Positions 11,728 to 26,658 of a stretch of DNA of 30,864 nt are shown in pieces. Position numbers and translations under genes: made by a program. The notes beneath the pieces were generated by a model that saw nothing but the letters and a program-made list of their open reading frames with translations, did not search any database and was not told the DNA's origin. Source of the stretch: a virus; the IMG/VR virus record IMGVR_UViG_3300032516_003734, positions 1-30,864 of that record, one strand, 5' to 3'. Each line of letters starts with the position of its first letter. The first letter of the stretch is position 1.

Positions 11728-12276
11728 ATGGGATGGTTCGGCCACTCGCCATGGGATGGAGATTCGCCGCAGGACATGCTGGCCACGCTCGACGAGCAGC
11801 GAGCGGCCTGTCTCGCGCGCCTGGTCGGCGTTCCGATCCGCTACGGCTTCGGATCGGGCAAGCACGCCGCCACGCTGAAGAAGGTCGCGGACGACTGGGC
11901 GCGGCGATGGCACATCGGCGGACGCTTCGAGCTGACCAAGAAGGGTCCGCTTATTCTCAAGGATCGCTTCGACCAGTGGTCGGTGGTCGGCGTGATCTGC
12001 AAGGTGCTGAACGAGGGCGTCGGGCTCGACCGCAAGGTCGTCACCTGGGCGTTCGATGCAGCCGAAGCTATCTGGGCGGATGACGCGTGGTGCAACACGT
12101 GGAGGCAGCCCGCGGCGTTCCGGTCGGCGGTTCGGCTCGTCGCCGATCAGCTCGCCGCGGCGCTCGACAAGAAGCCGTGGAAGCTGGCGCCGATGTTCGT
12201 CTGGGCGACGATCGAGCCGGCGCCGGAACCGAAGCGACCCAAGCGCCGCCCTATCGGACAGCGGCGCGGGCGCTAG
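11728..12276 (+). CDS. Hypothetical protein with DUF4259-like N-terminus
   Basis: 182 residues, ATG 11728 preceded by GAGGAGTG. The N-terminus MGWFGHSPWDGDSPQDML resembles the MGxxGxxPxDxDxxxD start of DUF4259-type proteins; the resemblance is short and the call weak. The middle is helical with many Trp (VVTWAFDAAEAIWADD) and the tail is basic (KRPKRRPIGQRRGR). Its TAG stop overlaps the TAG of the convergent HNH gene at a CTAG palindrome. Confidence 0.55.
   Translation: MGWFGHSPWDGDSPQDMLATLDEQRAACLARLVGVPIRYGFGSGKHAATLKKVADDWARRWHIGGRFELTKKGPLILKDRFDQWSVVGVICKVLNEGVGLDRKVVTWAFDAAEAIWADDAWCNTWRQPAAFRSAVRLVADQLAAALDKKPWKLAPMFVWATIEPAPEPKRPKRRPIGQRRGR
12273..12276. other. Convergent stop codons sharing CTAG
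   Basis: The plus-strand gene 11728-12276 and the minus-strand HNH gene end with TAG on opposite strands of one CTAG palindrome. The same arrangement occurs at 30114-30117. Confidence 0.9.
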
Positions 12277-12634
12277 GACTTGTTCTTGTGCTTCGCGAGG
12301 TAGGCGCGCCCTGCCTCCGCGTGCGGGTTCTCAAGATGCCCAACCATCAGGTTGCATCGGTTGCACAGAAGTTCCCGGACACGTCCTGTTGAATGATCGT
12401 GATCGACGCTCAGCGCCTTCCCTGGCTTCGGTGGGCTTGAGCAGATCGCGCACACACCGCCCTGCGCGGCGGACATCTTCGCAACGTCATCCGGTGTCAG
12501 GCCGTACTTATTGCGTAGAACATACGCGCGGTGCGTGTCGTTGGTGACGCTGGTCCGGCGTGCACGGCGCTGCGCGTTGATGCGGTCCTTGTTCTCGGCG
12601 CGCCGCTCCCTGTCGCGCCGCTTGTTTTCTGGAA

Positions 12635-12642
12635 CGGCAAAC
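12635..12642. repeat. Target-site duplication, left copy
   Basis: CGGCAAAC immediately outside the left terminal repeat. The identity to the right flank extends to 10 bp (CGGCAAACCA) because both sides happen to continue with CA. Confidence 0.85.
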
Positions 12643-12657
12643 CATGCTTATCCGGTT
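12643..12657. repeat. Left terminal inverted repeat of the element
   Basis: CATGCTTATCCGGTT, a perfect 15-bp inverted match to 12886-12900. The match ends at 12658. Confidence 0.88.
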
Positions 12658-12662
12658 GGCGC

Positions 12663-12860
12663 TCAATCGCGGTCGGCGAAGCGCCCCGACCAGCCGTCCC
12701 GAAGCGAGCGCACGTCGGCTAAGGTGCTCACCTCCGACTGCCAGGCGACCTCCGCCGTGCCGTCGGCGAAAAGAGCGACGATCCTCCCCTCGTCGTAGTC
12801 TTCCGTGTACGGACGACCGCCTTCGACCTTCTGTCCGATGAACGCATCACGCAACCTCAT
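12663..12860 (-). CDS. Cargo protein of the 258-bp element, unknown
   Basis: 65 residues, ATG 12860, preceded by AAGAAAGGA at 9 bp inside the element. The pattern GQKVEGG, DEGRIVALFADGTAEVAW and a polar tail (GWSGRFADRD) suggests a small SH3-like beta barrel. The start overlaps by ATGA the stop of the truncated HNH reading frame, so it can be translated by coupling as well as from its own SD. It fills 198 of the 258 bp. No family is assigned. Confidence 0.65.
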   Translation of the reverse strand: MRLRDAFIGQKVEGGRPYTEDYDEGRIVALFADGTAEVAWQSEVSTLADVRSLRDGWSGRFADRD

Positions 12861-12885
12861 GGCTCACGATCCTTTCTTGGGTGAA

Positions 12886-12900
12886 AACCGGATAAGCATG
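12886..12900. repeat. Right terminal inverted repeat of the element
   Basis: AACCGGATAAGCATG, the reverse complement of 12643-12657 over 15 of 15 bases. Confidence 0.88.
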
Positions 12901-12908
12901 CGGCAAAC
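12901..12908. repeat. Target-site duplication, right copy
   Basis: CGGCAAAC directly after the right terminal repeat, identical to 12635-12642. On the minus strand both copies encode part of W-F-A. Confidence 0.85.
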
Positions 12909-13122
12909 CACGCCCGAGTGCGCGCGTTGTCCTTGTCCCTTTGCGCTTGTCCACGCGTCAGTCGATGCTTCGCCTGATGCTTGGCGGCCTTGGCCTTGTA
13001 TTCGGGCGTCTGCCGCCGCGCGTTGAGAACATCTTTGTATTTGCTCGTCTGTCGATACTTCGCTTGATACTTGGCGGCCTTGTCTTTGTCGCGCGTTCGC
13101 CCGCGCGTTTTTTTTGCCGTCG

Positions 13123-13563
13123 TCACGTCACGACAAAAGGCGCAGTCCACGTGCGGTACATGGCGAAGGACAACGCGAGCCCTGCCGCCGCCCCGATCAA
13201 CGGCTTCTTCGAGACGGCGCCGACGACGCCCGCCGCGATGCCGCCGGCGATCGCGGCCTGCAATCCGGCATTCATCGCGGATCTCGTCCTCGCCGTCCAG
13301 GAAGCGTTCAGCGCGCTCCCCGAGCAGGCGAAGTCCGTGAGCGTCTGCCCGAGCCCGTGCAGTCCTGCGCCCTCCGGAAGGCTCCAGGACACGATATCGG
13401 GGGCGCCGGTGACCCAGCTCCCGTGCTCGATGTAGGGCGCGTACGGCAGCCCGCGGCGCAGGCTCCTGTTGAACTGGCGCTCGGGGTTCGAGCCCCACGG
13501 GTCCAACATGTTGACCTGACCCGGGATGTTCTTCGTCTGCCCGAGCGCGCCGTGGAAGCTCAT
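13123..13563 (-). CDS. Hypothetical protein with C-terminal hydrophobic region
   Basis: 146 residues from ATG 13563, placed by a TACCAT box 6 bp upstream. The first half is polar with an unusual DPWGSNPERQFNRSL stretch. The C-terminal third is Gly/Ala-rich and hydrophobic (AAIAGGIAAGVVGAV, then LIGAAAGLALSFAMY), enough for two short membrane passes. Function unknown; it could be a virion-membrane or holin-like protein. It is followed by the broken HNH gene in a GTGA overlap. Confidence 0.65.
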   Translation of the reverse strand: MSFHGALGQTKNIPGQVNMLDPWGSNPERQFNRSLRRGLPYAPYIEHGSWVTGAPDIVSWSLPEGAGLHGLGQTLTDFACSGSALNASWTARTRSAMNAGLQAAIAGGIAAGVVGAVSKKPLIGAAAGLALSFAMYRTWTAPFVVT

Positions 13564-24507: not shown

Positions 24508-25542
24508 TCAGAGGCCCAGCTTCGCGGAAGCCGGCTTTTCCCACTTGTTGTCACGCTGGTAGTAGCGGAGGAGCATCTGCACGCTGCGGTGGCCGGTCTG
24601 GTCCATGACCGACTTGTCGTCGGCGCCGTGCCTCTTCGCTTCGGTGACGAAGCCGGCGCGGAGCGAATGGCCGGACAGGTCGCCCGTCTCTTTGAAACCG
24701 GCGCGCGTCGCGGCGCATTTCACGATCACCGCAACGGCTCGCCCGGTCAGCGCTTCTTTCCCGACGTTACCGTGTCGATCGACTCGCCGGAACACGGGGC
24801 CCGTCTCGGTGCCGCTTGTCGCAAGCCACTGCTTGAGCAGTCGAACCGGACAGCACGCTTCGTCGCTTCCGAACGCGATGACCTTCGTCAGTCCTTTGCC
24901 GTACTGGTCGGTCTTCGATTTGCGGATCAAGATTTCAACGCCTTCTTTCACGAAGGTCAGATCCTCGACGTTCACTGCGACCAGCTCGCTGCGCCGGAAC
25001 CCGCCGGCGAATCCGGTCACCAGCAGCGCGCGGTCTCGGGCACCAAGGACGTTGTCGGGGGCCGTTTCTATCATCTCCCGCAACGCGTCGATCTTCAGCG
25101 CGGTCTTGTGCTCCTGCACGGTGCCGAGCTTTCGTTTGATGCCGCTCCAGACTTCCTGCACCTGTGGATGTGCACAGGGCGACGCGAGACCGTTCTCTTT
25201 GTGCCACGCGGCAATCGCGCTCATGGCCTGCGAGATCGAGGCAACCTTCAACGGCTCGTCGGCGCAGGCCGCGATGTAGATCGCGACGGCACCGGACGAC
25301 GCGGGGAACGCAGGGAGCTTGGACCCCTGCTCGTCCCACCACCCCCTGAAGCGCCGCTGCTGATACTCGTAGGCGCGATGGGTCGCCGGCCCGCGCGCCT
25401 GGGTCGCGTAATCCTTCGCACTCTTGATGAGCGGCTCAAGCAGCGGCGAGAGCTGGGAGCCCAGCTCGGGGGCGCGCACGAGCGCGACGCCGGGTTCCGC
25501 CGGCCGCGGCGACTTCTTCCTTGATCGTCCATAACCATCCAT
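24508..25542 (-). CDS. int: Tyrosine recombinase (phage integrase family)
   Basis: 344 residues, ATG 25542, placed by a leaderless promoter. Core-binding domain at about 45-135; catalytic domain from about 145. The active-site set is visible: R183 in GGFRRSEL, K208/K210 in RKSK, H292-x-L-R295 in GHSLRAGF, H318 in GHRS, and Y327/Y328 in LLRYYQRD. All should be functional, giving site-specific integration. It heads the minus-strand unit that includes the excisionase-like gene. No att site could be assigned. Confidence 0.93.
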   Translation of the reverse strand: MDGYGRSRKKSPRPAEPGVALVRAPELGSQLSPLLEPLIKSAKDYATQARGPATHRAYEYQQRRFRGWWDEQGSKLPAFPASSGAVAIYIAACADEPLKVASISQAMSAIAAWHKENGLASPCAHPQVQEVWSGIKRKLGTVQEHKTALKIDALREMIETAPDNVLGARDRALLVTGFAGGFRRSELVAVNVEDLTFVKEGVEILIRKSKTDQYGKGLTKVIAFGSDEACCPVRLLKQWLATSGTETGPVFRRVDRHGNVGKEALTGRAVAVIVKCAATRAGFKETGDLSGHSLRAGFVTEAKRHGADDKSVMDQTGHRSVQMLLRYYQRDNKWEKPASAKLGL

Positions 25543-25548
25543 TAGCGG

Positions 25549-25577
25549 AACATAGCATCTAGGGCTTTCTGGTGCAA
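25549..25577 (-). promoter_or_regulatory. Integrase promoter, probably leaderless
   Basis: On the minus strand TTGCAC (25572-25577), a 17-bp spacer and TATGTT (25549-25554), which ends 6 bp before ATG 25542. There is no ribosome-binding site before the ATG. It is a good match in -35, spacing and TAnnnT -10. Confidence 0.65.
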
Positions 25578-25587
25578 GGGCGATCTG

Positions 25588-25636
25588 GGCTCCCACGCGC
25601 TGGTTTCGCCGGCGCTCGGGGTCGTCGCCGGGAGCC
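25588..25636. repeat. Inverted repeat in the int/early intergenic region
   Basis: GGCTCCC (25588-25594) and GGGAGCC (25630-25636) are perfect 7-bp inverted arms separated by 35 bp, in the middle of the divergent 25543-25721 region. It could be an operator, an att arm or chance in GC-rich DNA. Confidence 0.35.
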
Positions 25637-25648
25637 GGCGTAGCCCCG

Positions 25649-25677
25649 TTGACAGCCGCGTTGGTTGTCACTACATA
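25649..25677 (+). promoter_or_regulatory. Sigma70-type promoter (first of a matched pair)
   Basis: TTGACA (25649-25654), 17 bp, TACATA (25672-25677). The -35 is a perfect consensus. The stretch 25663-25683 is the same as that of the second promoter at 26986-27006 in 20 of 21 positions. It serves the unit starting at ATG 25722, which has GGAGG upstream. Confidence 0.75.
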
Positions 25678-25683
25678 CGCAAC
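25663..25683 (+). repeat. 21-bp repeated segment covering the -10 region, copy 1
   Basis: From the last 9 bases of the spacer through TACATA and the following CGCAAC. Same as 26986-27006 except one base (A here, G there). The arms are GTTG...CAAC, as in a protein-binding palindrome. Confidence 0.7.
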
Positions 25684-25721
25684 TGTCCGGCGCGAGCTTG
25701 CGCGTGACATGGAGGTTCGAG

Positions 25722-25934
25722 ATGGCGACGAAGAAGGCGACGAAGAAGAAGGTGACGATCCAGCGGTCGAGCGAGGAGTGGCAGCGGTACGCCGCGGCTG
25801 CGTTGGGCGCACTGGTCGTCGACGCCGACAGCGACTGGACCGACGAAGGCCCCGACGACACGGTCGAGGCCGTGGCAGAGCTGGCGGCCCGGTACGCCGA
25901 CGCGCTCGTTGCGGAGGGGAAGCTGCGGCGATGA
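25722..25934 (+). CDS. Small Lys-rich-leader hypothetical protein
   Basis: 70 residues. ATG 25722 is chosen for the GGAGG at 25711-25715; an ATG at 25709 lies in another frame. It opens with a basic leader (MATKKATKKKVTIQRS) and continues as an acidic helical domain (AVAELAARYADALVAEG). First gene behind the early-type promoter. Unknown function. Confidence 0.6.
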   Translation: MATKKATKKKVTIQRSSEEWQRYAAAALGALVVDADSDWTDEGPDDTVEAVAELAARYADALVAEGKLRR

Positions 25935-26173
25935 CGGCAGCGGAGGCGATGCTCCTCCTAGACGTCGTGGTCGAGCTGAACCAGCGCGTCAGCGCGGAGG
26001 ACGCGGCACAGCTCGTCTGCGAGAAGTGGGAGCGCGATGGTGGGTTCGCGGGCGACCCGATTCCTGACCCCGTCGAGGTCGATGTGCGCGACGAGGAGGG
26101 GATGCTCTGGCATGTCGAGGTCACGCCGCAGTACGACGTGTCGTTCTGGGCGACGAAGGCTCGGCAGGCATGA
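25931..26173 (+). CDS. Small hypothetical protein
   Basis: 80 residues, ATG 25931 (ATGA overlap). Helical first half (EAMLLLDVVVELNQRVSAED), beta-rich acidic second half (VEVDVRDEEGMLWHVEVTPQ). Unknown. Confidence 0.55.
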   Translation: MTAAEAMLLLDVVVELNQRVSAEDAAQLVCEKWERDGGFAGDPIPDPVEVDVRDEEGMLWHVEVTPQYDVSFWATKARQA

Positions 26174-26658
26174 CCGGCAACGGCGCGGTGATCTCGGACT
26201 GTCAGACGTACCGCTACGTGCTCTGGCGTTCGCTCTCGGGCGCTGGCCTCGCTGGAAGCGTGCTCTGGGTCGCCGTCAATCCAAGCACAGCGACGGCGAC
26301 CGAGAACGACGCCACGATCCGCAAGGTGATGGGCTTCTCGCGACGCTGGGGCTTCGCCCAGGCGCGCGTCGTGAACCTCTACGCGCTGCGCTCGCGCGAC
26401 CCGAAGCTGCTGCTGACGCACCCGAACCCGATCGGCCCCGAGAACGACAAGTACATTCGCGTCGAAGCATCCGAGGCGGATGCGGTCGTGCTCGCCTGGG
26501 GCAACAACGCGAAGCCCGAGCGAGCGAAGTCCGTCCAGCAGGCCATCGAGGTCTGGGCCGAGCATAAGCCGATCTGGCATCTCGGGCTCACCGGCCGCGG
26601 ACAGCCGAGCCATCCGCTGATGCTCGGCTACAACACGATGCGCAAGGAGATCGACTGA
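26170..26658 (+). CDS. DUF1643 family protein
   Basis: 162 residues, ATG 26170 (ATGA overlap). The family blocks are in order: VLWVAVNPSTATATENDATI (31-50), RRWGFAQARVVNLYALRSRD (58-77), HPNPIGPENDKYI (84-96) and VVLAWGNN (106-113). DUF1643 is a widespread phage and bacterial family without a settled function; the conserved NPST and WG blocks suggest a ligand-binding or catalytic pocket. Its neighbours are small unknown proteins of the promoter-1 unit. Confidence 0.85.
   Translation: MTGNGAVISDCQTYRYVLWRSLSGAGLAGSVLWVAVNPSTATATENDATIRKVMGFSRRWGFAQARVVNLYALRSRDPKLLLTHPNPIGPENDKYIRVEASEADAVVLAWGNNAKPERAKSVQQAIEVWAEHKPIWHLGLTGRGQPSHPLMLGYNTMRKEID

Follow-up and report, generated by a model that had tools for sequence, protein, structure and literature searches.

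The window analysed here, the whole of virus record IMGVR_UViG_3300032516_003734 (positions 1 to 30,864; 30,864 bases), contains a 258-bp unit that is very probably a non-autonomous mobile gene cassette, moved in trans by a transposase of the IS1595 family (ISAcr1-like). What is new is the virus-associated, highly diversified cassette family to which it belongs, which is large and apparently undescribed so far, and whose closest known kinds are mobile insertion cassettes (MICs) and IS1595 elements with passengers. The PHROGs genes of the window are portal, exonuclease, integrase, helicase, endonuclease VII, GroES and thymidylate synthase genes; the tyrosine integrase frame (24508-26613) codes for 701 aa and has a long N-terminal part, well above the usual length. 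All contigs studied are metagenomic assemblies.

A 258-bp element within an endonuclease VII gene

The element occupies positions 12643-12900 and is bounded by inverted ends that are perfect over 15 bp (12643-12657 and 12886-12900) and match at 83% when extended to 24 bp. A perfect 8-bp direct repeat, CGGCAAAC, lies on both sides (12635-12642 and 12901-12908). The direct repeat extends to 10 bp (CGGCAAACCA), and the 8-bp reading is fixed by the end conserved across the family, whose outermost base is a C lying three bases beyond the GCTTATCC core. Both the 15-bp inverted repeats and the 8-bp duplication had been proposed in the first-pass annotation, and sequence comparison bears them out. The features are as follows:

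12635..12642, no strand: target-site duplication, left copy CGGCAAAC (repeat match)
12643..12666, plus strand: left terminal inverted repeat CATGCTTATCCGGTTGGCGCTCAA, first 15 bp perfect (family end conservation)
12663..12860, minus strand: cargo ORF, 65 codons, ATG at 12860 (GC3 0.80; homologue search empty)
12877..12900, minus strand: right terminal inverted repeat CATGCTTATCCGGTTTTCACCCAA, first 15 bp perfect (family end conservation)
12901..12908, no strand: target-site duplication, right copy CGGCAAAC (repeat match)
12857..13126, minus strand: endonuclease VII N-terminal part, from GTG 13126 into the element, TGA at 12857-12859 (frame analysis)
12273..12642, minus strand: endonuclease VII C-terminal part, PF02945 domain (frame and domain search)

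Removal of 12643-12908, that is the element plus one duplication, leaves 588 bp (195 codons and a stop) open from the GTG at 13126 to 12273, which is the single frame that had been predicted. The C-terminal part of the interrupted gene matches Endonuclease_7 (PF02945; E = 3.6e-18), and phage homologues span the junction, at about residue 75, unbroken (46% identity, residues 60-191). Since the alignments with relatives from other phages run straight across the insertion point, the intact gene is most likely the original form. The broken frame now enters the element and ends at a TGA that overlaps the cargo ATG as ATGA, and the other end of the element gives a TAA in the C-terminal frame, in which the next start is the ATG at 12476. 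Endonuclease VII has most likely been inactivated by the insertion, with a presumed loss of nuclease function. As we read it, the cassette landed in the gene in the same direction and set its ATG on top of the stop of the interrupted frame. Within the N-terminal part there is also a 44-bp direct repeat (12956-12999 and 13046-13089, 86%) that codes for a protein repeat rich in K, A and Q.

A family of elements with shared ends in viruses

A paired-end pattern with a gap of 200-230 bases returned 7 virus stretches, several of them from one 117-kb contig. The shared end, C(A/G)TGCTTATCCGGTTGACACCCAA, occurs in at least 120 IMG/VR stretches, with differing interiors and 8-bp duplications. Conservation sets in abruptly at the C that lies three bases beyond the core and continues for about 24 bases, with the consensus C(A/G)TGCTTATCCGGTTG(A/T)(C/T)(A/G)C(A/C)CA. 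When elements were called from paired ends flanked by 8-bp duplications in which one mismatch was allowed, at least 81 (67 distinct, in 63 sequence clusters) of 207-2563 bp were recovered; in a chance control, 0.95% of randomly drawn flank pairs passed the same threshold. The family was sampled with exact patterns, and virus counts are given as lower bounds. The check set beforehand, which asked for related elements that differ in their flanks and in their 8-bp duplications, was therefore successful, and with so many same-ended elements in virus contigs the structure of the window element exceeds chance. This family also supports the first-pass reading of a MITE-like, gene-carrying unit in phage DNA that lacks a transposase.

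Across 68 distinct insertion events, the target is palindromic, AT-N-GWWYRWWC-N-AT, centred on the duplication, and the preference falls to background beyond three bases outside it; both orientations were pooled, which imposes the symmetry of the profile but accounts for neither how strong it is nor how far it reaches. The genes next to the elements are viral genes (terminase, helicase, DNA polymerase, head morphogenesis). Of 47 elements, 24 interrupt a frame of at least 150 codons that their removal would restore, as against 74% of random sites; selection against insertions in genes would produce such a deficit, and the window element is one of those within a gene. A preference for ribosome-binding sites was rejected (10.3% against 9.7% expected). 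Relative to their two neighbouring genes, 17 elements are on the same strand as both, 5 are opposite to both and 20 are mixed, which is only suggestive of a same-strand bias. In related phages, several cassettes (L012:5871, L046:181 and L097:220) lie behind copies of a repeated 150-bp leader, at nearly identical positions in the repeat.

Filled and empty sites, and multiple copies in one phage

Evidence of mobility came from a sister cassette. In two metagenomes (L020 and L031), a 506-bp cassette lies between ATCCAAAT and ATCCAAAC, and in a third metagenome (L111) the same site is empty, with 299 of 301 bases identical and a single ATCCAAAC. L111 and L031 have another cassette, of 675 bp, in common, and this near-isogenic phage pair represents the filled and the empty site of the sister cassette. 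The empty allele that had been anticipated was thus found for the sister cassette and not for the window's own site, and no near relative of the window phage was found in IMG/VR. Spanning patterns returned no empty alleles at two further sites. L012 was discarded as an empty allele of L097: similarity tails off immediately beyond the insertion point, and that phage has repeats of the leader.

The 117-kb contig IMGVR_UViG_3300050119_000104 (L006, L007, L005 and L002), which its polymerase, helicase, gp2.5 and endolysin families mark as a phage, carries 27 end cores, about 13 elements and one transposase, which is 84% identical to that of L089. Some 10 of its elements are near-identical units of 235-256 bp with different perfect duplications and no clear ORF, and constitute a recent burst inside a virus.

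Cargo diversity and the 65-aa ORF of the window element

About 47 elements shorter than 1 kb are cargo-only, nearly all with different genes, whose function is mostly unassigned. In these 47, the median distance from an element end to the start of the main ORF is 43 bp, that from its stop to the opposite end is 28 bp, and the ORF covers 85% of the element; in only about half of the cassettes is there an ORF longer than 95% of shuffles give. The DNA-modification gene Mom (L108:921-1616) is the sole cargo of a 767-bp cassette, an N6_N4 methyltransferase is carried by L022, and D12-like methyltransferases that are 66% identical to each other are found in L109 and L036 with differing duplications, which suggests that such cassettes are mobile anti-restriction genes. 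L101 carries RlaP (RNA repair), and family tallies add further methyltransferases, MazG-like proteins, PAPS reductase, HNH proteins and many PHROGs without a function. One cargo family was found with a transposase (L047), without one (L072, L075) and outside cassettes (L028, L066, L098), a pattern consistent with acquisition from the pool of phage genes.

As for the window element, the first-pass annotation had described one ORF with its own SD and no transposase; AAGGA does stand upstream of the ATG, the ORF is coding-like, and a transposase gene is absent from both the element and its contig. No homologue of the 65-aa product was found in IMG/VR or in 50,697 isolated-phage records, and its fold model is poor (pLDDT 56, some beta strands), so that the cargo may be a decayed gene; its expression is presumed. 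The alternative that survives best, although we judge it unlikely, is an ordinary MITE, that is, a decayed IS1595-type element with a non-coding interior in which 65 codons are open by chance. The size would fit a MITE in the strict sense (short and non-coding), the cargo is without a homologue, 65 codons are modest for GC-rich DNA, and the representative of the 235-256 bp units in IMGVR_UViG_3300050119_000104 has no ORF of 40 codons or more. The coding character of the ORF argues against it: its GC3 of 0.80 is like that of the phage's other genes (an antisense ORF starting at an ATG within the element end has 0.53), the AAGGA is in place, 77% of the element is coding, and the other cargo-only cassettes, including several with recognisable genes, are laid out in the same way. 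We read the ORF as a candidate passenger gene, coding-like by GC3 and lacking a homologue, in a unit whose sister cassettes carry recognised genes.

An IS1595-type transposase as the proposed mover

At least 11 long elements of the family (1653-2563 bp) encode a transposase of the IS1595 family, mostly together with a passenger. Siguier et al. 2009 are said to have included elements with passengers in this family. The three transposases tested match DDE_Tnp_IS1595 (E = 1e-28 to 4.5e-33) and Zn_ribbon_IS1595, and their nearest named IS is ISAcr1 (64.6% identity), a simple IS of 1080 bp with ends CTTGCCTATCCGGTTGACTCCCAT and the 8-bp duplication GAATCAGC; ISAcr1-like ends and an 8-bp target duplication are likewise present in the window element. 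An autonomous element with the same ends, which was to be looked for, therefore exists. Since the IS1595 transposase domains are found only in the longer same-ended elements, the window unit is a derivative and not an IS. A close transposase is present in 5 of 34 cassette-bearing virus records including the window (which has none), a lower bound given that the records are fragments, and movement in trans is thus the likely rule.

Both source and mover had been called unknown, questions that now have answers in large part: the mover is most likely an IS1595-family (ISAcr1-like) transposase from longer same-ended elements, as we infer from sequence comparison. In the mechanism we propose, a DDE transposase of the ISAcr1-like branch would recognise the 24-bp inverted ends of the 258-bp unit and shift the cassette, leaving an 8-bp target duplication. 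The enzyme would act in trans, encoded by longer same-ended elements in other phages or sometimes in the same phage, and cassettes would carry phage accessory genes beside or in place of the transposase, typically as one compact ORF.

Distribution among viruses and bacterial genomes

The next alternative, also improbable and in our judgment weaker than the MITE, is that these are bacterial elements with a host-encoded ISAcr1-like transposase that merely land in phages. Bacterial ISs of the same branch do have nearly identical ends, and viral and bacterial transposases of the ISAcr1 branch mix on the tree (3 changes, at least two of them forced); a single viral clade is unsupported on this intermixed tree, in which the viral part is the larger and more varied in our sample. 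Against a bacterial origin, the end pattern TGCTTATCCGGTTGACRCMC was found in 10 stretches of 84,980 bacterial and archaeal genomes (257 Gb) and in at least 79 virus loci. One of the 10, L131, agrees with virus record L041 both in length (17,306 bases) and in its matches. Among 385 alphaproteobacterial genomes, the phage-type end was present in the seed genome alone and the ISAcr1 type in two. Moreover, ISAcr1 and its nearest plasmid relatives measure 1.0-1.15 kb and are without cargo, whereas complete viral transposase elements measure 1.65-2.6 kb. There is one clear chromosomal copy (L124, a 763-kb contig, duplication CTTCATAC), and with so few genome matches otherwise, the cassette family is best described as virus-associated, not virus-exclusive. 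The ends were unmatched in plasmids, and the 50,697 isolated-phage records gave no match to the element, cargo, ends or near transposase apart from one 21-base chance match to the element.

Relation to known systems

MICs are defined by inverted repeats, the lack of a transposase gene, a passenger, a target duplication and movement in trans (PMC3913671, on the qnrD mic). The phage cassettes share with MIC231 of IS231 and the qnrD mic the inverted ends, the absence of a transposase, the target duplication and the passenger gene, which is recognised in sister cassettes; MICs depend for movement on the transposase of a same-ended IS acting in trans, as we predict for the window cassette. Unlike MICs, which reside in plasmids and chromosomes with few cargoes, the phage family is virus-associated, has nearly as many cargoes as cassettes, goes with a different transposase family and sometimes places several different cassettes in one phage. 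With the ISAcr1 branch of the IS1595 family it has in common the transposase domains (in the longer elements), the 8-bp duplication and the type of end sequence (GCCTATCC in ISAcr1, GCTTATCC in the phage family), but it differs in its phage-DNA habitat and in that most phage members keep a gene and have no transposase. According to what PMC12888890 cites as known, IS1595 stands on the border of IS and transposons and can carry passengers. A better name than MITE-like unit is mobile insertion cassette, within an IS1595-type family.

The mycobacteriophage elements MPME1 and MPME2 have one conserved ORF of 123 residues, a length of about 440 bp, a 6-bp left-end addition and two types (PMC3029335, PMC4351075). 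They resemble the window element in ultra-small size, phage habitat, inverted ends, a single ORF and near-isogenic filled and empty phages, but it is very improbable that the latter is of their kind, with the single ORF itself the mover: the window element has a 65-aa ORF, 258 bp and an 8-bp duplication, and in this family the ORF differs in nearly every cassette. The window contig is metagenomic, but an assembly artefact or chance repeats are hardly credible, given identical cassettes at identical sites in contigs from different samples and a sister cassette with filled and empty alleles.

No such phage family was found in the literature searched on phage MITEs, phage IS and ISAcr1, a coverage outside which most subscription papers and preprints fall, and the description of the type as seldom described fits. 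Integron gene cassettes are single-gene units that shuffle accessory genes by means of an attC site and the integron integrase. The phage cassettes are likewise single-gene units, but without attC or integrase, and with inverted ends, target duplications and many sites. Whether phages own a transposon-based gene-cassette system, a virus counterpart of integron cassettes that explains part of phage mosaicism, seems to us evenly balanced. If so, shared ends and a scattered IS1595-type transposase would let single accessory genes (Mom, methyltransferases) hop between unrelated phages. How unrelated phages gain such single genes ('morons') is an old question, usually answered by illegitimate recombination; single-gene units bounded by inverted repeats, with clean 8-bp duplications, dozens of cargoes and few occurrences in bacterial genomes, would offer a defined, testable mechanism, in which the ends would tell which genes can move and every cassette provides an exact before and after site. 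The ends are also a search handle for phage accessory genes, several of which are already recognisable as DNA-modifying or RNA-repair enzymes.

TnpB-like units and repeat variation

TnpB-like nucleases (OrfB_IS605/Cas12f1-like) occur in 1.1-kb units with family ends. Five of these, of 1136-1256 bp, are without an 8-bp duplication:

L005:4200-5335
L007:5316-6454
L054:654-1789
L059:9803-10938
L115:2525-3780

TnpB-driven homing or recombination between copies is a possible explanation for these five, and a further TnpB-like unit (L029:1253-2408) does have an 8-bp duplication, ATATCAGA. L055:6322-7072 and L015:5707-6226 are one cassette at one site that has no target duplication, and they differ in the number of KAKRATLYADYE-like repeats in the cargo protein.
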